This document shows, piece after piece, positions 724-33,500 of a DNA stretch of 41,832 nt. This DNA is from Gryganskiella cystojenkinii (taxonomy: Eukaryota; Mortierellomycota; Mortierellomycetes; Mortierellales; Mortierellaceae). The position numbers and the translations under genes are program-made. The DNA lies in NCBI GenBank assembly GCA_015852425.1, contig JAAAIG010000056.1, positions 35,019 through 76,850 of the forward strand, in the 5' to 3' direction. The first letter of the stretch is position 1, and each line of letters starts with the position of its first letter. The notes beneath the pieces are model-generated. The model was not told where the DNA came from. It saw only the letters and a program-made list of their open reading frames with translations, and did no database searches.

Positions 724-3700
724 CTACTCGTCGCTCAGGATCTGTTGTCGTAACCAAGTCGTCTCTTCCACGATCCAGTCATTATTACTATGCGGTCCAT
801 CTAACGTACTTATCTCCTGGAACCCTTGGTTGATCCTCAGGCTTGCCATTGAATTTAAAAATTGACCCGTCTGACCATGTTGAAGCCAAAACACGTCCTT
901 CCACTTGAGATACGGTGATGGAGGGGGTGATAATGGGTTCGTCAATGGTAATGACGGCGATAATGACTTTGAAGACTCTTCATCGTTTTGTTTTTGCTGT
1001 CCTTTTTCCTGCTGGGTCGAAGTCGATGACGATGATGATGATGATGGTGATGGAGATGATGATGACGATGATGATGGCGATGCGGCAGAACAAGGCTTGT
1101 TGGCGATCTTGTCGGGTCTGCTCACGATCCAGTCGTTATCCCGGTTGTGGTACCGATAACCCGAGACTTCATTATGGTCCTGATGATTAATGGACCGATG
1201 CTGGTGAGAGTGTAAATAAAGCGTCGTTGACGGTGTAGTCTTGTAGATCATGGTATGATATGAGCATAATGGCCGAAGTTCCAAAATTGGGCCACAATGG
1301 TTTGATGAAGTAGCGGAAGACGATGAGGGTGAGAATGGAGCAAACTCCGGATCATGTTCGTCATCGTCGTCGTCTTCTTCTTCTTCATCCTCGCCGTCTT
1401 CACCTTTGGCTGCTATCGAGTCCGTTTCTTCCGAGTCATATGTCGTTCCCGTCGCCTGACTTGCACCACAAGAGCAGTGGTCAATGCAATCCAGTTCAGT
1501 CTTGGCCCATGTGATATCATGGTCCTGGTGATCGGAAGCCTGTCGACACCGCATACAGAGATATGGATCATGACCTCCAAGCGACATGTCCGGGAAACAC
1601 GTTCTGTATTCAGAGAGGATTCCAAATGGAGCATTAAAAAACAATATTAACACGCGAGATTCATTGTGGAATAAAACGTCGCTCCTATGCCGTTCTAATC
1701 ATGATTGTTATGTTTTCTTACCTGCAATGGGCAATCCATTCGCCAGCTCGAGCACGGTATCTACATCGAAGTACAACATTGGTTCCGCCAGTCCGCTCAT
1801 GTTGCTTACAATGAGTCGCAAACCGGAAAGCGCTGTTCTCACCACATGCACATTGTAGTGTTGGTGGCAACGAATGATTGCTTTGCTGATTGTGATCAAA
1901 TCCTGGACCAAGAACAGGGAAAGCCACCGGAGGCGCACAGAGTCGTTGGTATAGATGTCCCACATGGGCTTCCTTGACAAAGCAAGGATCGCAGAACACA
2001 CGGGTGGGGTCGGTTTGACACGACTAAGAGCAATAGAAGGCAAAGTTGTAGAAAGGCTGCTTGTCAGTTTCCGATCCCATCGAGAGCACGCGCACAAGTG
2101 CGAAAATATCAGCAGTGCTCCTTTACCTCACATTTGTAATAATACGTGCCCTCCTTAATCTCTTTGGAGCAGAGGATAGTCTGTCGATTGTGATCGTCAC
2201 AGCACTCGGTCTCAATCGCATCCGAGTCTTCACTTTCATCCTCGTCTTCTTCTTTGTCTTCGCCTTGTGTCACAGGTGGCGATGGAGTGATTTTGGGGGT
2301 GTCAGACTTGGAACATGCAGACCTGCAATTATCAGGTGAGCCACAATGACAATACAATCCTTCGTTCCGTTTGTTTGTAAATTCCTCAAATTTGTGATCC
2401 CTGTGCGCATCCATGTCGAAGCAGCGTTCGCAAGTCCATAGAGCCTCCGATAATGATCGCTCCCCAATGAGTTCTGAGGAGGTGCTGTCGCTTGTCGCTG
2501 GCGCCAACTCACACGTCAAGCATCGGTACATGGTGTCACCCTTGAGGAAGAGGTAGTTGCATTGGACGAGATGAGGTACTGGCCGGTACTCATCGGGAAG
2601 ATGATAGTTACAATCGAACGCTGTCTTGAACAAGCTGGGATCTCCACAGTCGCATGTCACATCTGAAACTGGCGACTGTCCCTCATCGGGATCGCCGCGC
2701 TCTACTTCTTCCTGCTCAGTATCTGTCGTTTTAGTGGAATTGGCATTGATGGCAGTATCCAGTTCGTCGCGTTGATGCTTCTCAGAGATGCGAGGCTGCG
2801 ATTGGATTCGCAGACTATCGACCAAGGAAGAAGACACATCAGTTGCTACAGGGTATCCGCTGGTTTGATCCGATCGCGGGCTCGTTTGGTTGTTGTTCCC
2901 TTCCATAGCAGAAAGATCGCGGTCCGAGGAATTAGCTGGATACGACGACGTAGCTCGAGCCTTGGTCCGGGGACCAACTCCCTGAAACTCGCCCATCCTC
3001 CACCGGTGGGATATACAGGCGGAAGCGTGGAAGCATCGACTGCAAAGCACGACGCGATCGTCCACGCTGCAGTCTTGGCAGTGGTATATGTCCTCACCAG
3101 GTTTAAATACATGTCCACAGCGGTGTTGATTATTATCCAGTACAATCGATTTTGTCGCATGTCTTTCAGTTGATGAAGAAGACGAGGGTATTGAATCTAT
3201 GGCCGCGACCGCTGTTAAACTGCTTGTATTTCCTGATTTCGATGAACTCAGATTGGATCCAGACACCGCGGATGATTTCGATGTGCTCAACGAGTCCTTA
3301 TCCTTGTCCTTGAGCGTCAATGGCTGCCGCATATATTCGGAGCCCAGCTGACCGGAGCTGTGATAAGCGCATGAAACTTTCTTGATCCAAGATTTGTTGT
3401 CATGACAACTGCAGGTAGCTCCTTCCTCGGCTATCTGAGCTGACGTTTCGTGTCCAAAATGGTTTTGCTGGAAAATAAAAGGGAGTTGAGAATAGGAGTG
3501 TGAGAATGTAAGGGGTTTCATGGCTTTGGAAACATGCAAGTCCACAACGATGAAAATGATTGGAGACGCCTGTGTACATACCGAACGGAAACAACGAGCA
3601 CAGAGTACTGCCGTTTTGGAATTGTCCAAGGAACATGTCTATTGGAAAAGGCGATTGTGATGAACAACGAAGAGCACTTGTTTTTTTCCTTGAATGTCCC

Positions 3701-6700
3701 AATCTATACTGTAAACTTCATACCTGACAATGGTAAACCATTTCTCCAGTCTTGAAGGTCATGGAGCACTGCTTTCCTTTACCAAGTCTCGAGTATGTCC
3801 GATGGGTCTCTGCACAGTGAATAGAGCAGTGCAGTGAATGATGCGCCTTGAGTCGAGATGTGTCCTCGCAAACACATACAGATGTGCCCCAAGAGCACTG
3901 GAGATACATAGTATGATCGGTATGGTCAGAGGCTATAGTCAACCAATTGCACGAAAAAAAGGTATATAGAGTTAAAGTAGAGTCCCTCAAGATCACTCCA
4001 GGTTTCTCATTAGGATGTCGACATTTACCTCGGAAGCATCGCATGCAAAGGACATCCACTGGACAAGTCTTGCAAATAACATAGGTTTCGCCATACGGGA
4101 TAACATGTCGACATGGTGAACCACGAGCCAAAGGTAAATACTCTGGGAGCTCCATCTTCGCATTCCTTGTCGAGAACCAGTATGAGACCAACCAGACGCG
4201 ATCGCCGTATGACACCTTCCAATCCTTCCGTGTCCTGATCAGATCCTTGGCTGGTAAAATGATCCATTTAGAAGCCGTATACATTTTGCTATCGCAGGCC
4301 ACTATCAAGATGAGCAGGTGGGAAGGAAGGTAAGGATCACTCGGCAGGGTGGAATAAGGTCATATGGTCTCTTCACCGCTCGAAGAGTTAAAACAAGAGA
4401 CTTGCCTGCGTTTTGACGTGAAGATCCTTCGTGGTTGTAAAGCCAATTCCAGATCCAAGCGTACTGTTGAGTGTTGGCGTGCAACAAGTGGATAGTCCAT
4501 CCAAATTGAACAACCACTCGGCTGTCAGTTTCCTTTACCACCGTCTTTCCGATGCTGTGGGTCTTTGCTGCTACTCTCGCCTGCACTGCTCCTGCTGGAA
4601 TTTCTGTAGCCGCCGCTCCTGCTCTGTGACTTTGACAACGTTTAAGATGATAATAGTTCATGGTTATTATTGGCCAAAACCAAAGAGAAGTACCGAATGT
4701 AGCCGATCCCCTCCTCAATGTAAATTACCTTGACTTTTTGTCGTGGATCTTTGTAAAATTACCGAAATCGGAACTTTTTGACAGCAGAATTTCCGCTATC
4801 CGTCGCTCCAGTGCCGATATTGGTGGCTGAGTGATCGCTGGTCGCTGCACCGTCTCTGTGATAATCTGATCCAGACCCGTAACCACAGAATCGTTGTTCT
4901 CGTCATTTATTGTTTCGACTTCCTTTGTCCGTAAGCGTGATAGACGATAGCCTCGATTGGTGCTGGTGTGTCGAGTGATTGAAATCGGGCTATTTGGTGA
5001 GCCGGTTGATGCCAAGGACGACGTATTATCGAGGATGAAAGAGCTGAGCAACTCCATAAAGCCAGTGGATTCATCTTGTAACATGTCATTCAAAGTCACA
5101 AGAGCAGCTGAAGCCTCTGGGCCAGGGATACACCTTTCGAGTAATTGCTGTCGTATCTGATCAGACAGGCGAAGGAACTGTACATAGTCCTAACGAGCGC
5201 ATATTAGATTGTCATATTAGAGAGCTGACGCAGAAGCATGTTTCTGGCAGCGGATAAAATTACTCACTAGTGAGCAATATCATCTGTTGTCAGACATCAC
5301 ACCTCGACTCACCTTTAAGTATCCTGCTCTGTCCAGTGGGTCCTGTGCGGTCGCTGTTTCCGCAGCAACGCCTTCCTCTTCGTCCAAGGCATCCAGGGCT
5401 TCTTCGCTAAACGTTGCTTGCCACAACTCGTCCAGTAAGTTGGAGTGGTAACTTTTCAACGCTAAGACATTCGCAGTCCAGTACTCCATATACATCCCAC
5501 TTGTCGGTTCCATAGAGATCGTTATCGCATCCGCCACAGTGGTCACTGCTGTGGTGCGAGCGGCTAAAGTTGTCTGTTGATCTGCCACGAGACACATATC
5601 TCGCAGCTTTGGCAGTAAGAGTTGTTTCAAGTCGAAATCCACTGAGAGGCCCATACATTGAACTTCGGCCACGGACAGAGCTGCAGACTCGGCCTTGCTG
5701 TGAATCATGGCTAACGTGTGACTGGGCAAAGGGATAGGCATGGCATCTAAATATTCGTTCATGACCCTGTGGTAAGTCAACCCGGCATTCAAGAGAATTC
5801 TTTCGCTCAGGAGGGTCTGTCGATGGAGTTGAGGCTGTTGGAGTAACGAATGGTCGATATATGTGCTACTGGGATCCGATGACGCAAAGGTGATGATCGT
5901 TTCCAACTGTGTGAGCGAAACTTGCAAGTTTGCGTATAGCAAGAGTCCTAATGTGGGGACAATAAGTTAATAACGCCACATGATTGGAATATAGATATCG
6001 AGATTACTGCAAGATCTTGCAAGCACGAGTTTTCGTTACCATTGACAAATTGGTCTCCTGTTGTCAATAATCCCTCTACACTAGACAAGGTGTTTTCGAT
6101 CCATGGAATCAGAGATGACTTGTGGAGTCCATGGTCCTTCTCGCTGAGGACGGTTCCTTTTCCTTGCCCAGTGCTATCGCGATTGATGGAGAGAACTTGT
6201 AGTCCCCCGGTAAGCATATTTTCCATGTCCATGTCGGGTGTTGTATGAGACTCACAATATCCAGATCTTGCGGCTTGGTCCTGCAGTGTAAAGAACCTGT
6301 TTATGACATCCAAGTTTCGAATGTTGTCACTATTGTTGCCTTGGTTTGATAACAATCGCTGGATTGCTATCGTTCTCGATCCCGCTGTTGAACTGTCTGC
6401 TATGCTGGGATCGTATCCCATCCTCCATGATAAGGTGGGGTGACCGTAAGTTGCCAGCAAGGGCTCAACATCTGTTGCTCGCTCGACAACAAGCTCGATC
6501 GCGGGACCGATGACTTTGAGATCGTCTTGAGCATCCTGAAGATTTTCCGAGATGACAACCAATTGAGTCGATGCTACAGCCATAAGACCCACAAGGATGC
6601 GGCCAACAAGGTCGACAGTATCATCGTCAGGGAAGGAGAGAGAGGAATCTTGGCCTTGTCCGCCTCCTGCTGTTGCTGTCGAGGCCGGTATGAGGTACAA

Positions 6701-7118
6701 GTAGCGGGGTGACGAGGGCGTCAATAGCTGGGTCGGGATGCCATCAATCTGTTGTCCAGTTTTCCTGTTGTCGGAGAGAAAAGCCCAGATCCCGCCTATG
6801 CCGATATTTGCACTTTCAATGGACTCTTGGTCGAATTGACGATGAAGCGCAGACCGAAGGGCTTCTTGAACAGGTCGCTTGCAAGAGTCTATTTTTTGAA
6901 ATAAAGTTGACCCCAAAGGAGCCGTCAATGGTCATTGATCACTGACGTCTTTGCTCTTTTTTGTTCCCCTTCCATGTGTTCTGCTTACAGAAGGAAACGA
7001 CTACGAGGGGATCAACGATATACTCCAGGATGGCCTTTGCCGAGTCTGGGATGGTAATAGTCGCAGACCCTTGTTGTTGTCCTGAACGTGTTGCTCTCGC
7101 CAACTGAAAGACGGACAT
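724..7118 (-). CDS. Multi-UBR-box zinc protein (six tandem UBR-like modules)
   Basis: Exons on the minus strand: 7118-6989, 6888-6040, 5947-5313, 5189-4729, 4623-4406, 4301-4029, 3932-3724, 3638-3582, 3467-2127, 2023-1722 and 1603-724; 5355 nt, 1784 residues, with all junction phases agreeing. The ATG at 7118 is chosen because the long open frame starting near 6928 has no ATG of its own, and splicing from 6989 to 6888 supplies one in phase. Residues 1 to about 820 are unrecognised and look largely helical. From about 828 to 1608 the UBR-box pattern (C-x-F-x-x-G-E-x-x-Y-x-C-x-x-C, then C-x-x-C-F, H-x-x-H, C-x-C-G, C-x-x-H) recurs six times: about 828-898, 911-980, 1061-1233 (long Ser-rich insert), 1247-1329, 1377-1466 and 1478-1608. 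Known UBR boxes bind N-degrons in E3 ligases. No RING or HECT is evident, so calling it an E3 would be inference; an adaptor is equally possible. Acidic and poly-Ser stretches follow box 6. The intron 4405-4302 appears to use a GC donor. Confidence 0.8.
1022..1080. repeat. GAT-type triplet microsatellite in coding sequence
   Basis: A run of GAT/GAC triplets with scattered changes. It lies in the last exon of the UBR-box gene and, on the coding strand, reads as a poly-serine tract near residue 1660. A second triplet run at about 1353-1395 encodes an acidic Glu/Asp stretch of the same protein. Confidence 0.75.
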
Positions 7119-8128: not shown

Positions 8129-10159
8129 ATGGATCCAACCACCACACCCCCAAATTCTCCAGGAGCACGGCCGGATGTCATCATCGTCGGTGCTGGACTT
8201 GGAGGCTTGACTCTTGCAATCCTGCTCGAGAAAGCCGGAATTCCTTACAAAGTGCTTGAACGGGCCTCAAGTGTGAAACCATTGGGTAAAAAGACAAGCA
8301 AAATGATCCAACAGACTTCCTTATCGCGATCGTTCTCTCCGCGACTAATCTAAACGTTGACGCGTCTTCGCTCCCTCGCGTTTAGGATCGGCGCTATCGC
8401 TTGGACCGACAATGTTCCCTTTACTGACGCAACTGGGTGTATATGATGAAATCGTTGCGATTGGAAAGCCTATCGTAATCTCCAACAACTACGATGACCA
8501 AGGCGTCTTTCAGATAGCCAAGGATTTTTCTCCTGGAAATGAGTTGTAAGTGTGTTTTTTTTGCTTTTTATTAGCGCATATCCATCGCTGTTGGTCCACC
8601 TCCTGCCTGCCATCGAACTGACCCCATCATCGACTGCATATTTATCGACAGCGGAGGCGCCGGGAATTATGTCGTCGCGAGACCGCTCCTCTACAACATT
8701 CTCTACAAGCAAGTACCCAACGAAAAGATCCATCACAACAAGCGTGCGTTGACCATCACCAATGGCGACCTTGGAGTACGTGTAGAGTGCACGGATGGCT
8801 CTTTTTACGAAGGCAGTATTCTAGTTGGCGCCGATGGCGCTTACTCTCCTGTCCGTCAGGGTATGTACAAGTTGCTTCAACGAGATAACTTGTTGCCTTC
8901 AAGTGATGGAAAGCCTCTGCCCTACAACTGTATCTGCCTCGTCGGTCAAACTACGCCCTTGGACCCTGAAGAGTTTCCATCAATCAAGGAAACCAATACC
9001 GCTTTTGACTCCATGAACAGCATCGACACCCCATACAAGGTATGCCAATATGCTCTGAATCATCAACCTGTGTTACTATACCTGTTCCGCCCACCCATCC
9101 CATCCAACAATAAACAACCCCTTCTCTTTCTTTTAGTGGGTCACGTTCACCACGAGACAAAACACGATCTGCTGGATGGTTCTTAAGTTTTTGTCGACCG
9201 AGTCCAGTAAAGAGCATGACACCTTCCGAGATTCGAACTGGGGTCCTGAGGCCGCTTCGGCTATGTCGAAGGAGGTGCGCACATTCCCTGTTCACATGGG
9301 CAATGGTAAAATGAAAACCATGGGCGATCTGATCGATAGGACTCCGAAGGACCTGATTTCCAAAGTCGTATTAGAGGAAAAGGTCTTTAAGACCTGGTAT
9401 TCTCTCAGAACCGTTCTCCTTGGTGATGGTAAGATCCACAATGTCTGATTGTATGATACCATATACAGTACTCACTATACACGAATACGGACAGCCGTCG
9501 ACACTGTCCCCCTTCTCATAATTTTTTCTCTCTCTCTCTCTCCCTCTAGCCTGCCACAAGGTATTTCTTGACTAATAAGAATTTGTTACAAGTTACTTGC
9601 GAAACTTGTCTTTTTTTATCACCTTACATGGCATTTTTTTTTTTAGCTGAACCCCGCAGGAGGTGCCGGCGCGTTAACAGCGATGCAAGACGCACTGTGC
9701 TTGGCCAACTGGCTCAACGTGTTGCCAACAAATACCCTCGAAGATATTAGCAAGATCTTCAAGGAGTACCATTCTGAGAGATACCCGGTTGTGATGGACA
9801 CGTACAGGAGCAGCCAAGTCTTTGCAGCGACAGGTGACAAGGTACAACGTTTTTGTTTTTGTTTTCCTGTTTCAGTGCAGATTCTCCAGACCTCAATCCA
9901 ACCTCTTTTTTCATTTTCCGTCGTCCCCAACTAGACTTTAAAAGGTGCGCTCGTTCGTTTATTTTTCTCATGGATGCCTGAATGGCTTTGGTTAGCCATC
10001 TTGAAGAAGATGAGCAAGTCTCGGCCACAATGCTCTTTCTTACCCGCGGTGGCGGACAAGGGTACCGTCCCTCCGTCCGACCAGCCTAGTCTCATCAAGA
10101 CAAATGCCATCTTGGAAAAGCTGAGAGCTGTTGCTGCCAAGGAAACAGTGGCTGCATGA
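8129..10159 (+). CDS. FAD-dependent monooxygenase, array copy A
   Basis: Seven exons: 8129-8285, 8386-8545, 8652-9039, 9137-9428, 9550-9560, 9647-9841 and 9935-10159; 1428 nt, 475 residues. It belongs to the aromatic-ring hydroxylase-like flavoprotein family (FAD_binding_3 type, as in kynurenine 3-monooxygenase and paxM-like enzymes). These use NAD(P)H and O2 to hydroxylate or epoxidise a small substrate. Visible motifs are the N-terminal Rossmann VGAGLGGLT near residue 20, [11 protein letters not shown] near 175, and LLGDACHK near 330, the second FAD-contact motif. The four residues ACHK of that motif come from the 11-nt microexon 9550-9560. The C-terminus has a hydrophobic, Trp-rich segment ([11 protein letters not shown]) that could touch a membrane. 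Copy A is the most divergent of the four: it has NPAGGAG where C has SPSGGQG. Substrate is unknown. Confidence 0.88.
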
Positions 10160-15926: not shown

Positions 15927-17861
15927 ATGGCTCAAGACAACGCGCCTTACAAATCTCCTGGCGCTTGCCCCAACGTGATCATTGTGGGTGCAGGAATCGG
16001 AGGTCTTACCCTTGCCCTCCTTCTTGAGAAAGCAGGTATTCCATATACCATCCTCGAGCGAACTTCCGTTGTCAGACCGTTGGGTAAGAGATCTACAACT
16101 GTATTCGGGGCCTAAGTGCTAATCCAAATTACTCAATTTTAACAGTTATTCTTGACCCCCGCCATGTTTTACCCCAGGATCTGCACTGTCCTTAGGTTCA
16201 AATGTCACGAATATTTTACGGCAAATGAACGTCTATGATGAATTTGTAGAGGGAGGCAAACCAGGTCGCGTTTCTACGAATTATGACGACAAGGGCAACT
16301 TTGTCGGAATCACGGATTTTTCGCCTGGCATCGAATTGTAAGAGGACTATTACCACTACTGCAACCCTTGGGGACGCAACAGACAATGACTTCTAACGCA
16401 GAGCACCTTCCCTCATATTCCTGAACACTCTACAGTGGGGGCAACCAAGGGTACCTTATCGCTCGCCCCATTCTGTACGAAATTCTCCACAGTCGGATAC
16501 CCAAAGAAAAAATCCATCATAAGAAACGAGTCGAGAGCATCACGAACGACGTGAATGGCGTCCGTGTCGAGTGTGCGGACGGATCAATTTTCGAAGGCGA
16601 CATCCTTGTCGGAGCCGATGGAGCCTACTCTCCTGTTCGACAGGGGTTGTACAAACAGCTGAAGCAAAATAACAGCCTGCCTTCAGCTGATGACCAGCCC
16701 TTGCCATACAACTGTATCTGCTTGTTAGGGCAGACTGTGCCCTTGGATCCAGAAGAATATCCGTCTCTCAAGGAAGAGGAGTGCATCTACAACTCCATGG
16801 ATAGCATCAACGCACCATATGTGGTAAGGAAGGAGCATCTTCATCAACAGCATGCACATCAAGAGTGGATGGAATAGATCTTACTCACCTTGCAGCCTGT
16901 TTCTATTTATTTTACCGCGCTTTCCCGCAGTGGGCCACATTTACTACGAAGCAAAACACGATCTGCTGGATGGTTGTTCGGCAATTGGATGGGAATCAAA
17001 GCAAGGAGCAGGAAACATTGGATAACTCGGAATGGGGTCCTGAAGCGACACAGACTATGTGCAAGGAAGTAGCTGGGTTCGTAGCGCCTGTCGGTGATGG
17101 CAAGGTGAAGACTATTGGGCACCTGATCGAGAAAACACCTAAAGATTTTATCTCTAAAGTTGTCTTTGAGGAAAAGGTGTTCAAGACTTGGTATTCAGGA
17201 AGGACAGTTCTTCTCGGGGATGGTAAGTTTCGGCACAGTTCTTCTAAGTCCACCAGTTTTGTTTTTTGTCGCGGCGTGCTCATTTTTACGGCTGTTATAT
17301 TTTCGGCCATTTTGCTCTACTTAGCTTGTCACAAGATCAGTCCTAGTGGTGGTTTGGGGGCCGTCTCTGCGATCCAGGATGCAGTGTGTTTAGCAAACTG
17401 GCTTAATGTGTTACCCGAGAACACATCGGCGGCTGCTGAGAAGATATTTGACGAGTACCGCCAAGAACGGTTTCCCATCATTATGGATGCGTATCGATCC
17501 AGTCGACTCTTTGCTTCCTGCAACGAACAGGTAAACTTGATTGATTCTCGGCCACAGAAATTAATCCTCATGTATGATCGTCACAAAATTAAGCTACTGA
17601 TCACCACACCTGTTTCTTTCTTTCGGTCGCAACAAACAGTCCCTCAAAGGTTTCATTGTCAGGTACCTTTTCAAGAACATGCCTCAGTGGCTCTGGCTCA
17701 TCCTTCTCAAAAAGATGTATAGCAGTAGACCACAGGTCTCGTTTCTTCCTCGTGTCGAAGATAAGGGATCCGTTCCGCCTATCCCTCAACCGAGCTACGA
17801 CAAGACAATAGTCATCATGGAAGAACTTGCAGCCAAAGGCAAAGGACCAATGCCTGTCTGA
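15927..17861 (+). CDS. FAD-dependent monooxygenase, array copy D (microexon fused)
   Basis: Six exons: 15927-16083, 16178-16337, 16436-16823, 16931-17222, 17325-17530 and 17640-17861; 1425 nt, 474 residues. Exons 1-4 have the same lengths as in A-C. The fifth exon is 206 nt, which equals 11 + 195: the 11-nt microexon and the following exon are joined without an intron, so ACHK runs straight into ISPSGGLGAVSA. Motifs are [37 protein letters not shown] and LLGDACHK. The C-terminal MPQWLWLILLKKM segment is present. It is as intact as B and C and presumably functional. Confidence 0.9.
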
Positions 17862-18662: not shown

Positions 18663-21600
18663 TCAAAAGGCTTTGGGATTGCCATCCGCCCCACTTTGCT
18701 GCAAGAGTCGCCTGTTTCTCTGACTCAATCCTCGCACACCCTGGATGAGAGCGTTGGAGAGAACAAGTCGATCATTGCTCGTACTCCAGATCAGGTTCAC
18801 CCAGATGCGATTCTCATCTTCGACAACTCGCCACACGCAAACAGACTTGTCTTCACATGCTGTCACGAACTGTTTGTCCTCGAGAGCGCCTCTCCAGGCG
18901 ATGCTGTAAATGATCCCACCAAAACCTCTCACTGAAGTTAGAGATTGACCTGATGCGACATTCCACAGTCGAACTGTCTTGTCTGCGCTACCAGAGGCAA
19001 CCATCTGGCCATCTGGTGAATAAGCGACACTCCAAACCTCGTCGGTGTGGTCCTTCAAGATGTGAACAGGAGTACGGGTTTCTGCATCCCAGAGTCGAAC
19101 TGTTCCATCAGTGCTTCCCGAGGCGATCTGACGGCCACTTGGTGAATATGTGACACTCTGAACGCCGCCGGTATGACCAGTTAGGATGTGACCAAGCCTG
19201 CCGGTGTGTGCATCCAACAGTCGAACTGTTCCGTCAGTGCCACCTGATGCAATCTGTTTGCCGTTTGGTGAATATGTAACACTCATAACTGGACCACTGT
19301 GGAAAGAGTACAAAGGGATATCGGAGAGGATTTCTGAATGCATGGAACTCGGATCCCGGTCAATAAGGCCAGTCATGATGGAGCCACGTGCGCCGGGTTT
19401 TGGATCCCACAACAAAACTTGTTCGCCATCATCACCTGAGGCAATCTGCTGGCCATTTGGTGAATAAGTGACGCACTGAACCCCATGAGAGAGGCCAGAC
19501 AAGACATGACCAGGTGAGCCCGTTTGCGTATTCCACAGCCGAATCTTGCTGTCATTACTGCCGGAGACGATCTGTTGGCCATTTGGCGAAAATGCGACAC
19601 TTTGAACGCCACCAGTATGTCCAGTCAATACGAGGCCAGGAGCACCCGTTAGTGCGTCCCATAGTCGAACTGTGTGGTCATCACTGCCAGAGAGGATTTG
19701 CTGACCATTTGGTGACCAGGCGACACTCTTGACATGGTCGTCGTGTCCAATCATGATAGGACCAGATATTCCAGTTTGTATATCCCAGAGTCGAACAGTC
19801 TTGTCAGCACTGGAGGATGCGATTAGTCGGCCATTTTGTAAATAGGTAATATCCTCAACAGGTCCGGTGTGGCCAGTTAGAATGGGACCAGGTACTCCTG
19901 TTTGTGCTTCCCAAAGCCGAACTACGTTGTCAAAACCGGTAGAGGCAATCTGCTGGCCGTTTGGTGAATATCTGACACACCGAATACATGCAGTGTGGCC
20001 AGATAAGACTGGACCATAGGTGCCCGTTTGTGCGTCCCACAGCCAAACTTTCCCGTCATGAGTACCAAGGGCGATCTGCTGTCCATTTGGTGAATATGTG
20101 ACAGTCACGACAACGCCAGTGTGGCCAGTTAATAGAGAACTGCGTGCGCCAGTTTGTCCATCCCAGAGCTGAACGGTGCCGTTTTCATTGCTAGTGGCGA
20201 TCTGCTGGCCATTTGGTGAATATGTGACACACAGATCCGACCAACCAGGGACATGGTAGGAAGGAATGCCAAGAGAATCTGCTCCATCATCACTTTCAAT
20301 TACAATAAGATCCCCTTCGGTGTCATAAAGTGTTCCAGTTTGGGCATCCCACAGCTGAATTGCCCTGCCGTCATTGCCAGTGGCGATTTGTTGGCCATTT
20401 GGTGAATATGCAACACACGTAATCTCACCATCGACACTTGTTAATACTGGACCAGGTGCACCGGTACAGGCATCCCACAACCGAACCTTCTTGTCAGCGC
20501 CAACCAAAGCGATTTGTTGGCCATTTGGTGAATATGCAACGCCAATAAACCTGTCAGTCTGACCAGTTGATATGGGACCAGGTGACTCGGTTTGCGTATC
20601 CCAAAGCCAGACAATGTTTTTATCACAGGTATAGGCGATCTGCTGTCCATTGGGCGAAAATTGCACTTGTAAAACACTTCCTGAGTGGCGGCCATCCAAG
20701 GTGTGGGTCCTTTCCCATGTCGAGGTGTTATACAAGCTGATTGCACCGTTGTCGAGCCCAGAGGCAAAGGTCGCTCCGTCAGGTGAAAATGCACCACATT
20801 GCACGCCATCTTCTTGCTCCAAAAACGGCCGTTCACTGAAATTGATGCCATCCATTTGAGAATCGCTCAGATTGGCCTGTCGCAGCCAAATGTTGCGCAA
20901 GTTGGTGTTCCTCAGATCCGCCCCTTGTAGCTGTGTAGAGTCGAATTGTCCATTACTCAGATCTGCACCAGGGATTCGAATACCCTTTAAATCCTCACCA
21001 TTGAATCGAACTTGAGCTCGAACCAAGATCGTAATAGCATTCGTGGCCGCAATGATGACTTGATCATGATCTCTTGATTGTAGGATGACCTTGAGAAGTG
21101 TGCATTTGAACACGCGACTTTGTTGGACGCGCTCGGCCAGGAAGCTGATGATGGAGGGTTCGTGGGCGAAACTCTGGCGAAATAAAGGCGAGTTCGAAGT
21201 GGTGGCATAATCCTCCTTAAAGGTTGGTTTGTCTTTCTCCTCTTGATGCGGTTCAAAAACAGCTCGAGCTAGGGCGTACTCCAAAACAGATCGGTGGATG
21301 AATTGATATTGGTTCCGACTGGTTCGAGGGATAGGACAAGCCTCGAGCAAGAGATTCTCCCCATTGACATGGCCAAAGAACGATGCCTTCCAGTTATCCC
21401 TATCATGGACGGGTGAAAAGTCGACCACAGGATTTCCATTTTGCTTGTCAAATATGGCCGTTGCCAAGTCCTTCACAAATTTGATGGCATTCTTGGTGAA
21501 ACCATCTTCAGACAAGATACCAAAGGCTTTCTGGTCGTCTCCTGTCAATCCTCGCCCAATCAGTCGCTTTTGACCACGCTCCACCCAAAACTCCAGGAAA

Positions 21601-24550
21601 CGGTCATACAGAGTCACTCTGGATATCTTGGTGAGAGGTACATTCTGGGTCGGATCCACCAATCGTGGCAAGACCACAAGGGACAATGACAGCAGGAACG
21701 GGTTCGTTACTAGCTCTTGAAGGTTAGGGACGCTCTCAATGATTCGGAGGTAGTCTTCAACACTCCAAACCGATTCGCCTTTCGATAGACATTTCTTGAC
21801 ATAGCTCTGAACATAGTTCTGAATCTTGACCTTCGAGAATGGCGCGACCACAGCTTCCTGAAGGTAGGCAGCCCCTGTAAGATCATTCACATCGCCAGGC
21901 TGGAAGAACAAAAGGTAGTCAGGTCCAAGATACTCGCTCCTGCAACTGATAACCATCTTGACGTTCCACTCTCCAGACTTGTTCAGTCGGTTACGGTTGT
22001 AAAGGTTGACCCTATTTTGACATTCGTCATATCCATCGCAGATCAGAATGAACTTGTAATAGGTTTTGAGCTCACGGATTTGATCGTCTGTAAAGTCATA
22101 TTCACGCAATTGCTTGCCGATGAGGTCCTTCTCTGGTTTTTCAATGGCGGGCAAGGTGACAAAGACCGGGATCCGATTTCGGTGTTGGTCATATTCCCTC
22201 CACAAGTCTTTCTCCAGCTGCAGGTTGAACGTAGACTTTCCGGCACCAGAGTCCCCTAGAAGCAAGAACACCTTTTGATCGCCAGCCAGGAACTCATTGA
22301 CCTTGTCAGTCAGATTAAAGAGATTGTCATCAGATGCATCCCGGCTCGACTTGGCTTGCAGAGGGATGTAGACTGCATCCGGCTGTTCTTGTTCGCGGAG
22401 TCGTTGATATTTTCGCAATGAAAGCTCAACCGGGGATTTGTTTTGAACAATATCCAGCAGTGGCGATGAATTGAAGTGGGGAAAAGAAACATTCCAGGGA
22501 TATGAACTAGGCCCAGTGCTACAGCATGCTCGGTAAAGTGCTTGTTTGCTCTCATCACCATTGGTTTTCAGCTCCTCCAGCATTGTTTTGGCTGAAGATT
22601 TCGGGCCTGTGTGAAGAATAATCGATGTTCAATTAGGACCACAGGTTCATTGGCACCCACGCCACGCTCGCATTTTGACCAATATGATTGATTAACACGA
22701 ACCTTGAATGTCATTTTCAGATGTTGAAACCAGTCGCATGAGGATGTCGAGGATATACTGCTTGATCCGCGGTTCCTGTCCCCACTCCTTGTCATTCCGA
22801 TAGATCTCGCCTAGAAATGCAATTGCATCTTTCCGAGAGTCAGTTTCCCAAACTGGATCTGCTGCCAGATCTCCGAGACGCTGACAGACGCCCCATTGGA
22901 AGGCGGGATAGCGGAGACAAGGTGCCTCACAGACCAATATCTTGAACTTGGACAGCTCGCCATTCCGAAAAGCAGCGTCTATGCCACGTAATTGAGGATA
23001 CCAATCGCGGTTGCGATTGAAGCTGAGGCCATTCTTGAACGACTCCAGAAAACTCTGACCGCTTTCCTTCAGTGCAATCACTCCTTTGTATGCATCGACA
23101 ACGAGGTCAAAGACCTGATCGGCACCTTGGAGTCCATCTTGAATAGTGCCGACACTATGAATAAAGTCTGCGATATTTAACTCCTTGATTGCGCTTGCCA
23201 GCCCTCCGACTCCTTTGATTACGGTACCGGATCGTCGTAAAACCGCTTGCCAGGGTTTCTCGTCATCGGGGACAAGCAACAGGGCCTGCATGGCGTATTC
23301 TGCCTGGAACACAATGAAGGGGTCCTTGTTGGTCCTCAACTTCGTTAAGAAGGAAAGGAGTGGCGCGTGCAACATTATGCGGTCAAGACCCTCGACCTTG
23401 TTGTCCGCCATGGCATCCAAGACGAGTGACAGGGCCATCATTATCGGGTATACGTGATCCGCAGTTTTTTGAAAGGTTTTTTGGAGTCGCGTGCTCAAAA
23501 GTTCCAAGATCTTGACGAGATCATCGGCTCTGAAATGACCAGGATCAGCATCCTGAATCAACTGTGCGATACCTTTCAAGGCATGATCATTCAGCAAGAC
23601 CGAGTCGTGGACCCAATTGACCAATTGGGAGAGCAACCTTCGACAATCTCCCTTGTGAAGAACAGGGGCCAGGCACACGACTTCAGCTATGGCTGCCTCT
23701 GTATCCTTCAGTTCATCCCGAACCAGCGCTCGAATCAATTCTGCTGGCATAGCATTGAGTCTCTCTTTCTCGTTATGATTCACGTTTGTGGCTTTGAGCC
23801 AGGCGCGCACTAAGGGGTCGAGTCCAATATCACTAGCCGAGGTCCTCAGGAGAGCAAGGCAGAAAGCAAGCTGGCGGGTACTGAGCAGACGCCCATCCAC
23901 TTCTGGAAACTCGAATGAAGGGACGGATGGAGGACGGTCCGTGGTGAAGATTGTTGTCAATCCACTCAGTTTGTTGAGACTGACGTTTGTCTTTCTCCAA
24001 GGCAAGGGAGGTAATGGTTTGATTTTATCAGCAGGTGTGACGGGAACTGTACCAGCTGCCGTGGCAAAGGCGGCGCCTGGAGTTACTGAAGGGGTAGTCG
24101 CATGATTGGTTGCAACAGACGTAGTCGAAGAAGAATTCACAATAGTTGGTGCGCGACTACGGATAAGACTGTGATCACATTCAGCAGCGGCGATCAGTAT
24201 TGATGGAAAGTGTGGGTTCAACAAAATTCACAAGCTAAGCAGCAACACCTCCTGTTCTGGTCATACCTCAGTTCTTTAGCTTTTCTGTAGCTAGCTTGAG
24301 CCTCGTCAGCGAGTCCTAACTTCTCGAGTTGTTTACGGTGCTCGTCATACACAGCTACGATCCGGTCAATTTCAACGTCACTGGTGCTTTTTTGCGAAAT
24401 GTCGATCCTTTCCAAGTGTCGTTGTGCTTTCTCGCAGTGCTTTTTGGCTAGCTCACTGTCAGGTGTGCCGCTAGCTTTCTCAAGCTCGGCGTATGTGCGC
24501 TTGAGGGCCGTCTTTACCGACAGAGTTCGTTGGGACTCCCACTTTTTCAT
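18663..24550 (-). CDS. NACHT-pentapeptide-WD40 STAND protein (fungal NLR-like)
   Basis: Exons 24550-24267, 24168-22703 and 22606-18663; 5694 nt, 1897 residues, with matching phases. Residues 1-95 are helical and TPR-like. Residues about 95-585 have a Pro/Thr-rich linker, then a helical ARM/HEAT-like region. A NACHT-type NTPase follows, with Walker A GDSGAGKS at 701-708 and Walker B ILICDGYDE around 770-778. Pentapeptide-like A(D/N)LxN repeats lie near 1118-1173, then about 15 WD40 repeats from 1183 to 1876. Such STAND proteins oligomerise on ligand binding by the repeat region, and several fungal ones control non-self recognition and cell death; the role here is inferred from architecture. 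Many blades carry the same SPNGQQIA core, also at DNA level, suggesting recent repeat amplification. The ATG at 22583 is internal: splicing joins the NTPase exon to the helical exons. A 71-nt 5' leader intron (24629-24559) precedes the start. Confidence 0.88.
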
Positions 24551-26401: not shown

Positions 26402-29400
26402 ATGTCAAGAGCCTTTGGCATCTCATGTCGCACAGTCCCGCTTGGGAGGGTATCCTCCTCCTCCGGACTCGTCCTCAGCTCCGTGCTCAGGGCTACCAAC
26501 GGCCGGATCTCGACTAAACTCACAACAAGATGGTACCCCACCAGGACGATATCTTCCTCAACTCCATCAAGCAAGCGACTCGAACGAACAGCAGCCCCCA
26601 AAAAACCAAAAGGGATCAAAAAAAGTGACTCCGCCATCCCTACAAAGGAGGGATCTGCCGAGGGCGCCGGAAGCACTGGTGAGAGACCCGCGTTTGTAAA
26701 GACACCCGCAGTTTCCGCCAGGGAGATGGTTGCCGCGATCGTGTCCAGACGTAAAGACACTGACCCTTTCACCCCGAATGCCGATCCGTTCGCGAACCGA
26801 CTCGACTCGGCGATCCAGGCGGGATTGAAGGGGACGGGATCAGCGTCATCAGGAAGGAGGGACTCGAGGCACAATCGAGCCAATGTTGAACCGGCATCAG
26901 GGGTACAATTACCGGATGTGCAGGCACATTACCTTGTAGGACCAGCCCGTTGGGAGTCTGTTCAAGCCAGCGACGTCAAAATTAAGAGTGAGTGAGCGAA
27001 TGAACCAAGAACCTCCTTTAGTTTGATGGACACTCTACTTTACATCTGTTGGCTAACGCGATAAGCGATGCGCTTGATTTCCCATTTGCAGATATCACAC
27101 CCTCGAATAGACCAAAGGTAGCAGCACTGGAGCATGGATTGGATCGAGTTTTGTTCAAGTAAGTCCCATTGTCTGGTGCGAGCCATAGACTTTCTTAGAA
27201 TACTCTGATGACAAGGAATTTGATCTGATCTCCTCCATACCGTCTTATGTCCATATAGCCCGGGAGTCCATTGGTTGCAGGATCCACGCTCATCAGTATT
27301 TAATTTTGATCCATACCTGCGGTCCATCTGTCAGCCAGAAGACTTTGATTACAACGCCCTTCCAGCCTACAAAACCTCATCGATGGATCCATCGCTTCTC
27401 AACGTCACCAAGAAACACAAGGCAAAGTACATGGGATCAACGTCTTCGATGACCTCTATCCTTTCTCAGTTCTATTATTTGATCTCGGCGTGGAAACCAC
27501 TCAAGACGAGTCATCTATCAGGCGCATTCGCATCTCAGGTAAAAGGAGCGGCTTGTAATATGGAGGAAACATTATGTTATGAAACTGCGGACGAAATTTA
27601 TCTGGAATACGCACAAAGGACAATCTCGGCTGACACCCTTGTGGACTTTCTTGTACTGATAGCCAAAAGGATTCACGCGGTTAAGTCGAGCCCCTACGAC
27701 GATTCAACTCGTCTACAAAGGGTCGGGCGTGTATGCCGTTGATGCAGACAAGACCTTTGATTCCAACACAGTATTGATGCAACTGGTATGTAGATGACCA
27801 CTCACCTTTTTTTTAAACTATTTTCTGTAAACGGCAAACAGTCCTAACACTAACAAACACATCTTGATTATTGCGATTTAGGGAAAATCCATGGAAAAGA
27901 TGCTTACAAGCACACCGGAAGAATTTTCCCGATTCACAAAGGAAAACTCTTGGCAGGTCTCAAAAACCGAACGTAACGAACCCGAGGCCTTCAACTACAT
28001 CACAGCAGAGAACTTTGTTCTCCGATCCCAACTCGATTGCGAGGACCCTCGACTTCCAGGAAAGACCTTTGATCTCAAGACCCGCGCCGCGGTCGCGATT
28101 CGACTCGACGTTCATAACTATGAACAAAACCAAGGATACCAACTCTCAAAGGCTCACGGCTACCTCGAGTCGTTCGAACGCGAGTACTACGACATGATGC
28201 GCTCCGCATTCCTAAAGTACAGTCTGCAAGTCCGAATCGGTCAAATGGACGGCATCTTTGTCGCTTTCCACAACACGGCCAAAATCTTTGGGTTTCAGTA
28301 TATTTCCTTGGACGAAATGGATTCTCGCCTTTTTGGAACCAGTGTCATGGGCGATGAATGTTTCCGGAATCAACTTCGAGTCTTGAATAGGACCCTGGAC
28401 GAGATCACAAAGAAATACCCCGAGCAGGATCTCAAGATCACAGTCGATACCGATGAGACGGTCCAGAGCATGAATGTCTGGGTCGAGACCATGCCTCTCG
28501 GAGCGGCATCTTCTCCCCAGGGCAAGAATGTTGAGATCCGTTTTGATGAGAACGGAGCCCCTGAGATGCAACCTGGGGGCGAACTGAGTCTTTGGCAGAT
28601 TGTCTGCTACTCCAATATTAACAGTACACCCACTGTCGGACCTTTTGAATTGAACGACCGTGCCACAGACCTTTGGGAGTTGCGGTTCAAGATTGCGGAG
28701 CTGAACAAACCCCATATGATGAACGAATACCGTCGTGTGAAGGCTCTGCAGGCAGAAATTCTCTCGGATGACAAAGAGCGCGAGGCTGCCGCCGCTGCTG
28801 CCGCTGCTGCCGAGAGCAAGAACTCGAGCGAGGCTGTCGAAAAGACTGCGACCCGCTTTGACGCCATGAGGGACAAGTTGAGACGGATTAGTGAACGAGG
28901 CCGTGTTAAGGCCGAACACGAAGAGAAACGTCAAGCCAGTCAAGGTCTCTTGGTCTGGGAACCCAAGGGATATGTCAAAATCTCCGAGATCACTTCCGAC
29001 TCTGTTGTCTCTGCCGCCACTGCCCCTGTTGTCTCTGCCGCTACTGCACCTATTGTCTCTGCCGCCACTGCTCCTATTGTCTCTGCCGCCACTGCTCCTA
29101 TTGTCTCTGCCGCCACTGCTCCTGTTGTGGATATAACCCCACAATCGATCACATCTCGGATGGTAGAGAAACTCAACAAATTGAAAGAGTCCAAGAGCGA
29201 GTCCAAGAGCGAGCCCAACAGCGAGTCCAAGAGCGAGCCCAACAGCGAGTCCAAGAGTGAGTCCACGAACGAGTCCAAGAGCAAGTCCTCGGCCTCTACA
29301 AAGAACATTGATTCCAACCCTGCTATGCCCAGCATCCAGTACAAAGTCTATTCGAACCCTGTCGACTCTATCCGTCTCGCAATCAAGGACCTCGATTTGA

Positions 29401-30362
29401 TTCGCAAGGCAGTCACGTCCGATCGTCCGCTTGTGGGAAAGGAATTGTCGAGATTTGAAGAGTTGTCAAAATCGAAGCATGCGCCGTTGATTAAATCCTC
29501 GCATGCCTTTGACGAGATTCGATTCAGGCTGTTGTCGATCCCCACCAAACGTGCTGCTTACAACCCGTTTGACCGTGTTGCGTTGGAGCGAATGGCCGAC
29601 ACCATGGAACTACCGAAGTCCGAGATCACACCTGAATTGTCCGATTCCGACCTCCGTAAGAAGCTCTTTCGCTCCTTTCCAAAGTACAAAAGTCGTCAAC
29701 ATCTGGAATATTTCCACAAGCACCTTCACAAAGTGTTGACCTTGAGATCTGATACCAAACCGTTCAAGTCTGTTGAGGAATTTATTGCCTCTCCTGGCAA
29801 CCTCTTGGGACTCGAGCGAGCGATCCAAGGCTTGAACTTGAACAGTAGTCATGTGACCCGATATCATTTCTTCCAGAAGATGTCGAAACTGGATGCGGCC
29901 AAGAAGGGGCTCTTGTCTCAGATCTGGTATTCGGAACAGAAATTCTCAGACGATGAGTTGAAGGCATGGGGTCTTTTCCCAAGAATCTTTAATCCCGAGA
30001 AGTACAAGTCGACGCGCGATATCTTCAGGGCTGGCCAGACTAACTATGCAGAGATGAAGGCCTATAAAAAGCTTGCTGCTCAGAGAACGAGAGAGTCAGC
30101 CCCGGAGGCAGTAAAAGCCAAGAAAAAAGCTGCCGCCGAGGCCATGAAACTGAAGTGGACAGCACATGCCAAAAAAAAGTCGGCTGAACTTCCATCCGCA
30201 GACAGTGTAATGGATGCCTTGATAGCCGATACCAACAGATTCGAGAAGTCTTCGGATATCTTTGTCAGTGACGTCAAGGAGACTGAGAAATCTGAAGATG
30301 CCCCCGCCGTCGAGGGCAAGGATGCGAAACCTTATAGAGGATACGATGTAATATTTTATTAA
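26402..30362 (+). CDS. PET127: PET127-like mitochondrial RNA processing protein
   Basis: Five exons: 26402-26987, 27092-27158, 27259-27538, 27663-27785 and 27882-30362; 3537 nt, 1178 residues, phases consistent. Yeast Pet127 is a mitochondrial membrane-associated protein needed for 5' processing and turnover of mitochondrial RNAs. The family signature is visible as EHGLDRVLFNPGVHWLQDPR spanning exons 2-3, then FNFDPYL, GSTSSMTSILSQFYYLISAWK (split here for length) and FTRLSRAPTTIQLVY. The first 45 residues are rich in Arg and Ser and lack acidic residues, as in mitochondrial presequences. It is longer than yeast Pet127 (about 800 residues) because of an octapeptide repeat region (727-767), a KSE/PNSE repeat (788-821) and a lysine-rich C-terminal extension. 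The frame change between 27538 and 27663 is an intron, not damage. It is convergent with the PH-domain gene. Confidence 0.87.
29004..29123 (+). repeat. 24-bp coding minisatellite (five units)
   Basis: Five tandem 24-bp units, each close to GTTGTCTCTGCCGCCACTGC plus CCCT, encode the octapeptide (V/I)VSAATAP inside the PET127-like protein. Units are nearly identical, so copy number is likely to vary between strains. Confidence 0.9.
29188..29286 (+). repeat. 12/24-bp coding minisatellite, KSES/PNSE
   Basis: Repeats of GAGTCCAAGAGC and GAGCCCAACAGC encode Lys-Ser-Glu and Pro-Asn-Ser-Glu units in the PET127-like protein, about 65 bp after the first minisatellite. The product is highly charged and presumably disordered. 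Confidence 0.85.
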
Positions 30363-30506: not shown

Positions 30507-33500
30507 CTACTGAATAATAGCAGCCCGTTGAGCTCGTAACTCTTCCAGCTCCTGTTGGAGAGCATCACATTCGTTTTTGAGCGACTCTTTCTTTGCTGTC
30601 AAACCTTCGACTTCCAACTCGGTTCGAGCCTTGCGCCTGTACAGAGACTCGAGTTGATCATGGAGCCAATCCATGGTCAGACCTCCTGGGCTCTCTGATC
30701 CTAAGGTTGTACTGTTTTCGACTCTTGTTGTATCTGTTGTTGATGCTGAACTTTTTGATCCCCTGGATGGACGACCGTCACGACCATCACCGTTCTCATG
30801 CGACGCCTCCGCAGGATCCTCTTCTTCGTCCTCCTCTGCAAACGCCAGCTCGCCACAGGACCGTCTGGGCAAAGTCCTGTCCGATTCCAGCGCAAGAGTA
30901 CTCTTGGCTGCTGCTTTTCCTGTAGCCGTGGTGGGGGAAGTGGCTGAGGACGTGGAAGGTTCCATGCCCGTGAACAAGGACATGGATCGACGAGGCTGAT
31001 ACAAATACTTGAAGATTCCACTACCACTGCCGCTACTATTCTCGCCTCGGCGCATACCGTTCATGTTTTGGGCGACTTCTTGATTCGAACTGTCTGGACC
31101 GCTCGTATCCAATGGTCTATCGACGCCACTATCCAACGATCCACCTCGAGGCAGGGGTGGGTGGTTCACCAAACTGGCAGGAGAATTAGCAGAAGAAAGG
31201 GCCGATATTCGACGGGTCATGACCTCTTCAATCGTTTCCTTGACTTCCATGGCTAACATGGCTCGACCCTCATCGGCCTCTTTCTTTCGCATAATAGTTC
31301 CACCTCGTCGAAGGCCCATCATCTTGGCCATATCGCGCATCATCCGCTCAACCCCCGTGAGATTATCCGACATTTCGGAGAACGTCGCCATCTGAATCCT
31401 CGTAAACATTTCGAGTTGGTCCTTGATGACTTCTCGGATCAGTGTCTCGTCCATGGCCACAGCGGGAGGGGCAGACTTGGTCAGTGCTGATGAGTCAGTA
31501 GTGGCAGGACCATCATCTAGAGATTCCATGTTCGTGAAACTCGGATCCGCGACATGAAATGTTTTCGAGGCCGGTTGCATCGCCATCTCCGACATCAATT
31601 CTCGCAAGTGCTCTGTCTGTCGACTGGAATGAGTGACGATCCAGTCTCTCATCTCCTGTAATTCTTCTTTGATCGTACCTTCGCGTGAGGAATCCGAGGC
31701 TTGGGCGTCTTGGATTGAGGACTGTAAATTATTCATCCTCTCCAAGATCTCGTCCCTCTGGTCGTTCAACGAGTTCTCGGAGCGATCCGCTTCTTGAACA
31801 ATGAGATCTTTCAGTCGATCAAATGGCTCTGTCGGCCAATTTAACACAGCCGATTCCTCGTTGCCGTTCATTTGCTCTTGTGAGGTTACTGAGGTCCTCT
31901 TGGGAGCCAAAGATGCTGATCCGGATCGTTTGACAACAGCTGGACCCAATGGCGACGTTTCTTCCTCATCGTCATCCTCATCCGCCTCCAAGAGCTCAAA
32001 GACTTTGGCCAAAAGTTCCTTGTTTCCCTTCTCATACCTAGTCAGTTGCTCATCAATGACAGAGGTCATCCTTGCATCCATTCGGTCCAGCATCTCTGTA
32101 ATTCGATCCGAGGTCGATTGCAATGCCAGCATTTGACTCGATGATCGATCCTTGAGAAGAGTACCACCAAAAACAGAACCTGAGCTCCCGGTGCTGCTAC
32201 TGGGTCTGAGAGAAGCACGCCAGAGCGCTGGCGATTCTACCTCCAAAGGTGAGGACACCGCGGACGGACTCGAAACTTGCTGTTGTTGCTGGTGCTGGTT
32301 CACCGAGATTTGTGATGTCGATCGAGAATGCGTTAAAGGTGGAGCCGGTCCTTCAATACTGTTACCTCTTGCCAGGGCGGTAGCCACACGAGGGCGAGAT
32401 AGTGGTGAACCAGTAGCAGTATCCTGATGTCGACGCTGTTGTTCATCCAGTTGTCGTTTCATCTCTGAGAGTTGATCTGAGAGCTCATAGATCCTGTTAG
32501 ACTGATCTTGGACGGAGGGGATGACTTGGAAATCGAGCCGGTTCAGGACCTCGACTAAAGTAAGCTCATTATCCTCGGGGAGTTCGGAATCTGGTACCGG
32601 ATCGCTTTTGTCAACATCAGTCTCGGGAATTTCGGATATATTTGCCTCTCCTTCGGCGTCTTCAGTGTTCGTGACTACAGCGCTAGTGGATCTACTTTCG
32701 ACTCCTTGAAGCGTCACGATACGTCGTAACAGATGCATCTGTTGATTCATCTTCCTGTCCATTTGTTCCATATGTTCTTGTACGGCTATCATACGCCCAT
32801 CATCCACATTCGGCTCCCGACTCTTGTCGTACTGCAGATCTTGATAGGCCATCATGCGACACTGCGCTGTGTTCACAAACTCGAGCAAGAGAAGAAGCTG
32901 GTCCAACTTGGAAACAACCTGCTGGGAAGAACTGTGAAAGAATTGGAGGTTTTCGTCCTCATCGTAACCGTTTGCGACCATTCCAGAATCCATCATGGCT
33001 TGGTGTTGAGACTTCTCTTCAAACATTCGAGCCATGCCTGCAATCTTGGAATGCTTTCCAGTTGCCAATCCTCCGCCGTTGATCATAGAGCTTGAGTTCG
33101 GGATCTGGAACCCGACGGCAGACGGCGAGAGCGGATGTAGATTGGAAGAGTTGTTGGCAGTGCGCTGAAACTGACCCCTGGAACCACTGTCGATCGTATG
33201 ATAGTACGCTGGTCCTGATACTCCTGTAGACGAATGAACCATCGTACTCGCGGACCGTTGAAGCAACGACAGACCAGTCGCCGTGGCACCGTTACCTGAA
33301 CCTGCGTGTCCACCATTCAGTCGCCTGTAGGAACCAGTACGATTCTGACTCAACAATCCCTGGAGCTGTGGTTGCTGCTGTAACTGCGCCTGTGTACTCT
33401 GAACATTTTCGAGCTGCCCTGTAATCTCTGCCAGTTTCGATCGGATCTCTGACAGGGCTGAGATATCCCTCTGGTGCGCGCTGGGATCCGTCGCCGAGAG

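Follow-up and report, generated by a model that had tools for sequence, protein, structure and literature searches.

A predicted fungal protein with six consecutive UBR boxes, only one of which has a complete acidic pocket

Introduction

To our knowledge, the best-known UBR proteins carry one UBR box each. In UBR2, the box holds the amino group of its ligand with Asp150 and selects Arg with Asp153 (PMC10687169), and in yeast Ubr1 the Arg pocket is formed by Asp142, Asp176 and Asp179, with the amine-binding Asp (Asp176) being present, according to a review, in all UBR boxes (PMC11668491). A His at position 166 marks the UBR1/2/3 subfamily (PMC10687169). Here we analyze a gene on the minus strand of a 41 832-nucleotide stretch of DNA from the fungus Gryganskiella cystojenkinii (hereafter the window; GenBank assembly GCA_015852425.1, contig JAAAIG010000056.1, positions 35 019 to 76 850 of the forward strand), the predicted product of which carries six consecutive UBR boxes.

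This protein belongs to the same box family as UBR1 and UBR2 (yeast Ubr1, human UBR1 and UBR2 and the UBR1 of the same fungal genome) and, judged by His166, to the same subfamily; their boxes are also its closest solved sequences, one intron site is common to it and the fungal UBR1, and the three pocket Asp residues recur in its box 3. It differs from them in having six boxes, where we take UBR1 to have one, in that five of these boxes lack the amine-binding Asp, and in having no ClpS, RING or PRT6_C recognized by Pfam at E 1. The UBR boxes of UBR3, FBXO11/UBR6 and UBR7 likewise serve purposes other than N-terminus reading (PMC4506424), but those proteins have a RING, an F-box or a PHD (PMC10873205), none of which was found here with the same search. 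Like p62/SQSTM1, the protein would read N-termini without itself being a ligase, as a functional analogue and not as a family member; the ZZ domain of p62 resembles a UBR box (PMC11668491), and Pfam found no ZZ in the present protein. Proteins with MIR domains (O-mannosyltransferases, SDF2 and the IP3 and ryanodine receptors) are matched weakly, under the Pfam cut-off, by two C-terminal repeats.

Among the titles and abstract openings of open-licence PubMed Central papers we found no protein with several UBR boxes, and 'UBR box' and 'MIR domain' occurred together in no paper of the open-licence PubMed Central literature searched. The word 'tandem' is absent from the main text of PMC4506424, whose supplementary domain-architecture figure could list a multi-box protein.

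Results

Six UBR boxes in one predicted chain

With splice sites judged by hand, the gene model (7118..724, minus strand, within the 76 850-base contig C617) comprised 11 exons with 1784 codons and a stop, which is the same length as in the initial annotation, where an 11-exon gene for a 1784-residue protein with six consecutive UBR-box-like modules and no RING had been proposed. The gene and its boxes are given below, with residue ranges running from the first to the last zinc ligand, bit scores referring to the Pfam family zf-UBR (PF02207), and positions within boxes mapped on human UBR2 numbering.

7118-6989, 6888-6040, 5947-5313, 5189-4729, 4623-4406, 4301-4029, 3932-3724, 3638-3582, 3467-2127, 2023-1722, 1603-724, minus strand: exons of the whole gene model
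3817..4113, minus strand: UBR box 1, residues 828-894; 38.6 bits; 11/11 ligands; split by intron 4028-3933; Val at the Asp150 position
3360..3768, minus strand: UBR box 2, residues 911-980; 55.5 bits; 11/11 ligands; split by two introns; Ser at the Asp150 position
2601..3119, minus strand: UBR box 3, residues 1061-1233; 46.8 bits; 11/11 ligand positions filled, with Cys for His133; 117-residue loop; no intron
2190..2561, minus strand: UBR box 4, residues 1247-1370; 46.5 bits; 11/11 ligands with 1367-1370 taken as the last CxxH; Asp150 position occupied by His; no intron
1799..2171, minus strand: UBR box 5, residues 1377-1466; 46.1 bits; 11/11 ligands; split by intron 2126-2024; Ala at the Asp150 position
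1255..1765, minus strand: UBR box 6, residues 1478-1608; 34.7 bits; 11/11 ligands if the last CxxH is 1605-1608; split by intron 1721-1604; Ser at the Asp150 position

The whole protein matched zf-UBR in a Pfam search at 187.7 bits (E 3.3e-56) over seven stretches, a number that exceeds six probably because a long loop can divide the match of a box into two, which is what happened with boxes 3 and 5 when each was scanned alone. Scanned separately, all six modules scored above the curated cut-off of 25.2 bits (range 34.7–55.5 bits), and counting with the PF02207 profile thus bore out the six consecutive boxes. In every box the 11 ligand positions (99, 112, 115, 124, 127, 133, 136, 149, 151, 163 and 166) are occupied by Cys or His, with spacers of 12, 2, x, 2, 5, 2, x, 1, x and 2 residues that are identical outside three loops. 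We take this set to be 11 ligands for three zinc ions, in keeping with PMC10687169 as regards the numbers of Cys and His at each zinc, His166 and Asp150/153. The His166 equivalent is present in 6/6 boxes. A ligand-spacing pattern, composed after inspection of the modules, gave six matches in the protein as against none in 2000 shuffles of the Cys-rich array. In a PDB search, the boxes of UBR1, UBR2 and PRT6 came out on top both for box 2 and for a profile made of boxes 1, 2, 3 and 5.

The inserts that had been noticed in modules 3 and 4 proved to be real, and further ones were found: box 3 has a spacer of 117 residues (12 in UBR2), box 4 has inserts of 26 and 47 residues, box 5 one of 34 and box 6 one of 67. 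Directly after the pocket loop, the inserts of boxes 4 and 6 are acidic, with Asp or Glu at 15 of 47 and 21 of 67 positions, respectively, and since the final CxxH of these two boxes lies beyond them, their predicted ligand assignment is the least sure of the six. The suggestion that the modules may have specialized was also supported. Single-sequence AlphaFold2, run on the unspliced stretch and without an alignment, gave box 3 a mean pLDDT of 44.8.

The 10 introns are 85–123 nt long, nine of them with GT-AG ends and one with GC-AG (4405-4302), and the G+C content is 0.49 in exons versus 0.41 in introns. Because it takes splicing to complete boxes 1, 2, 5 and 6, exons 6–11 make up one chain; the joining of exons 1–5 to the remainder, by frame and splice sites, is less certain. 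We consider it very improbable that the array is an artefact, be it of wrong splicing or of exons that belong to separate transcripts. The model does derive from sequence alone, the GC-AG intron and an ambiguous acceptor of exon 5 (start at 4623 or 4629) sit upstream of the array, intron 3581-3468 is stop-free in the coding frame and could by frame alone be retained, and the YTNAY branch-point-like motif seen in nine intron tails is missing in the tenth. Against an artefact stand, however, the four boxes that each become whole only across introns, the presence of boxes 3 and 4 in their entirety within exon 9 (447 codons), and the finding that excision of intron 3581-3468 yields exactly the 5-residue Cys-His spacer of the other five boxes.

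Intron positions and related genes in the same genome

In the UBR1 gene of the same genome, the codon that follows Cys112 is interrupted by an intron after its second base. The intron of box 6 sits at the same base and those of boxes 2 and 5 one base later, at the codon end. A second intron site, located 1 base (box 1) and 3 bases (box 2) past the CFR codons, was seen in these two boxes only, and boxes 3 and 4 are intronless. The initial annotation had noted that exon junctions often fall at the same point within the modules and had considered this consistent with internal duplication of an exon pair; recurrence was thus found after the Cys112 equivalent in boxes 2, 5 and 6 but not at the second site, and the duplication retains in its favour the one intron site common to three boxes and UBR1, whereas a repeated exon pair was not seen. 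As this site is common to boxes 2, 5 and 6 and the fungal UBR1, we suggest descent from a UBR1-type box, and an old duplication of such a box would fit the pattern, with intron gain at a preferred site as the alternative. Over the 46 core positions left when the invariant ones are set aside, the boxes share 9–33% with each other and 15–41% with the fungal UBR1 box, where 200 shuffled pairs gave a mean of 6% and a maximum of 15%; box 2 is as similar to the fungal UBR1 (41%) as the latter is to human UBR2 (41%).

Of nine candidates scored in a six-frame scan of the genome, five places matched zf-UBR, three of them in the present gene, one on contig C651 and one on contig C606. The C651 locus is called UBR1 here because its box shares an open frame with ClpS and has PRT6_C on the same strand. 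At C606 a stretch that looks PHD-like by eye comes after the UBR box, and this gene we presume to be UBR7. Residues 1-822 and 1240-1784 matched no other locus of the genome (E 0.01), whereas for copies of residues 823-1239 the coverage of the genome was that of the scan with the zf-UBR family. PF13764 (UBR4) was not found in the genome, using a search that had no positive control. At the level of DNA, no relatives were confirmed in prokaryotic contigs (38 + 29 pattern matches) or, in two of eight scans, in viral contigs (9 + 1), which says little given the nature of these collections.

Pocket residues and the ligands they may allow

Going by role and spacing, Asp142, Asp176 and Asp179 of yeast Ubr1 would correspond to UBR2-numbered positions 118, 150 and 153. 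Position 150 is V, S, D, H, A and S in boxes 1 to 6, with Asp only in box 3 (1/6), position 153 is D, D, D, S, E and A, and Asp is found at position 118 in all boxes but box 4. The three residues occur together solely in box 3, at residues 1080, 1217 and 1220.

That most or even all six boxes should read N-degrons is improbable. The zinc frame in 6/6 boxes, the Asp153 equivalent in boxes 1, 2 and 3 and the Asp118 equivalent in five would agree with such a function, but the alpha-amine Asp that is said to be universal in UBR boxes (PMC11668491) is kept in box 3 only, which makes six N-degron readers unlikely. The multivalent N-degron reader that was initially suggested was in that form not supported in this respect, nor with regard to selection of Arg, the Asp for which is replaced in three boxes (S, E and A in boxes 4, 5 and 6). 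If the amine-binding Asp is taken as defining, boxes 1, 2, 4, 5 and 6 would be better called UBR-box-like than typical UBR boxes.

Because all boxes retain the zinc frame and only one has a complete pocket, we tentatively favour, with a probability of roughly 45%, a non-catalytic adaptor in which box 3 is the one candidate reader of N-termini and the five other boxes serve other partners. The occurrence in the same genome of a separate UBR1 (with ClpS and PRT6_C) and of ATE_C, the Arg-transferase domain, on contig C704 speaks for such an adaptor. Several observations weigh against it. The pocket of box 3 has Thr for Phe148 and Arg at position 120, where Thr120 has a role, and the 117-residue loop lies beside it, on its N-terminal side; each of these three features may spoil N-degron binding. 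Boxes 4 (13–17%) and 5 (9–20%) barely exceed the shuffled pairs in core identity, so that their descent is poorly resolved, and a weak search of the genome did not find ATE_N, a miss that may be an intron effect. Pocket residues, finally, predict ligands incompletely, because the UBR4 box binds N-degrons without using its Asp153 equivalent (PMC10687169).

It is possible, although we lean to the adaptor, that no box reads N-termini and that all six are modules for protein–protein interaction, forming a zinc scaffold, a role that has been proposed for UBR boxes outside the N-recognins. The absence of the amine-binding Asp from five boxes and the altered pocket and long loop of box 3 would be as expected, and some UBR boxes are known to bind no N-degrons, with the box of UBR3 binding DIAP1 (PMC4506424). 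Box 3, however, retains the equivalents of Asp118, Asp150 and Asp153 when all others have lost at least one, which suggests that they were kept for use. The initial annotation had offered an unrelated metal-binding scaffold as its second option; 'unrelated' does not apply, all six being UBR boxes by profile and ligand set, while the role of a scaffold may still do so. One may speculate that the acidic inserts of boxes 4 and 6, in which both loop Asp residues are lost, act as built-in pseudo-ligands.

Regions flanking the array

The regions on either side of the boxes contain the following features.

4624..7118, minus strand: N-terminal region, exons 1-4; about residues 1-725 when exon 5 is included; no recognized domain
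4249..4511, minus strand: MIR-like repeat, weak, that precedes the array; residues 730-782; not established
1114..1239, minus strand: MIR-like repeat that follows the array; residues about 1614-1655
754..906, minus strand: MIR-like repeat close to the C-terminal end; residues about 1725-1775, preceded by a Ser-rich insert

In the whole protein, Pfam at E 1 reported zf-UBR and sub-threshold MIR only, and RING, HECT, F-box, PHD, ClpS, PRT6_C and ZZ were not found, in agreement with the absence of a RING noted at the outset. As 57 Cys residues lie inside residues 821-1612 versus 7 outside (5 in residues 1-725 and one each in 726-820 and 1613-1784), a zinc-type E3 domain elsewhere in the protein is not expected. 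We accordingly give little credence to the protein being itself an E3 ligase by way of an unrecognized module, whether in the N-terminal 725 residues or as a UBR box recruiting an E2. Such a module could have gone unnoticed, in that the hemiRING of UBR4 escaped recognition for years (PMC10873205), that RING-like treble clefs are relatives of the UBR box (PMC4506424) and that nothing known matches residues 1-725 (no Pfam family at E 5 and no PDB sequence at E 1), but the low number of Cys residues in that region and the lack of any Pfam E3 domain argue against it.

The C-terminus appears to hold two repeats resembling diverged MIR repeats. With Pfam MIR (PF02815, cut-off 25.6 bits) scores stayed below the cut-off, at 12.6 bits for the whole protein and at 20.4 and 22.1 bits without the Ser-rich insert, and with a repeat profile built from 12 repeats of MIR proteins of the same genome the C-terminal part reached 26.2 bits, the best of 1000 shuffles giving 7.6. 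Three weak matches of the C-terminus in PDB (E 0.037–0.91) were all to protein O-mannosyltransferases, the matched part of which we take to be their MIR domain. AlphaFold2, run as for box 3, gave this region a mean pLDDT of 33.7, and the best 19-residue hydropathy window of the protein was 1.93. For the repeat before the array, the summed score was reached by 3 and the best-domain score by 7 of 1000 shuffles, with 12.4 bits against Pfam Ins145_P3_rec (cut-off 23).

Nesting of the UBR array within a three-repeat MIR beta-trefoil is no more than a possibility. With two profiles, 13 and 8 of 1000 shuffles attained the joined score. Adding the N-side piece to the C-side one took the score of one profile from 25.8 to 26.3 bits and that of the other from 28.3 to 26.8. 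The strand join itself lowered the score (from 22.1 to 20.7 and from 22.0 to 20.9) and was no better than chance, 697 and 312 of 1000 shuffles doing as well. Pfam MIR fell on joining from 22.1 to 15.0 bits, with Ins145_P3_rec at 14.9 bits (cut-off 23). Elsewhere in the genome, which has O-mannosyltransferase-like MIR proteins, a 268-codon open frame (G000:C776:37772-38266, plus strand) contains two MIR matches with 47.9 bits together.

Neighbouring genes in the window

A 1321-aa open frame with many WD40 repeats lies beside a 511-aa ARM-like frame (PF23948) at 18666-24227 on the minus strand. The two may be one NLR-like gene. Two other minus-strand open frames, of 1573 codons (30510-35228) and 457 codons (35614-36984), had no Pfam match at E 1e-5. 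On the plus strand, 16805-17719 is FAD-monooxygenase-like (FAD_binding_3, 26.5 bits), as is 8130-9186 when judged by eye from a dinucleotide-binding motif, with its piece 8575-9186 giving no Pfam match. Also on the plus strand are a Pet127-like mitochondrial protein (PF08634, 27882-30359), opposite to which 28215-29465 forms a 417-codon open frame, and a short-chain dehydrogenase (PF00106, 40029-41123).

Discussion

What the boxes bind, which partners they have and what becomes of their clients we infer as follows. The gene product would be a non-catalytic, zinc-rich adaptor with an array of six UBR boxes, a UBR1-type box being the ancestor of at least some. Box 3, with the sole complete acidic pocket, would bind basic or free N-termini as N-degrons, and boxes 1, 2, 4, 5 and 6, having kept the zinc frame and lost the amine grip, would bind other peptides or partner proteins, with the C-terminal MIR-like repeats providing an extra binding surface. 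Clients gathered in this manner could be handed over to a separate E3, such as the UBR1 of the same genome, or meet another fate, in likeness to p62, which reads N-termini and is not a ligase, and to FBXO11, the receptor subunit of a ligase.

A more specific variant we regard as doubtful. In it, multiplication of a UBR1-type box was followed by loss of the amine grip in five copies, so that a single protein reads an N-degron with box 3 and, at the same time, several other peptide or partner marks, with the array flanked by or even inserted in a MIR beta-trefoil. If true, such a poly-UBR-box reader would be, within the literature searched, the first UBR protein described to have an array of this kind in one chain. 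The domain is a known one and it is the architecture that was not found in that literature; orthologs may sit unannotated in public fungal proteomes.

Six boxes that are all complete with regard to zinc ligands, five of them without the supposedly universal Asp, would separate the fold of the UBR box from the reading of N-termini. The array would also constitute a natural set of six related boxes, the ligands of which could be compared side by side with those of the UBR1 box from the same genome, and it bears on the question of what UBR boxes bind when they do not read N-degrons.

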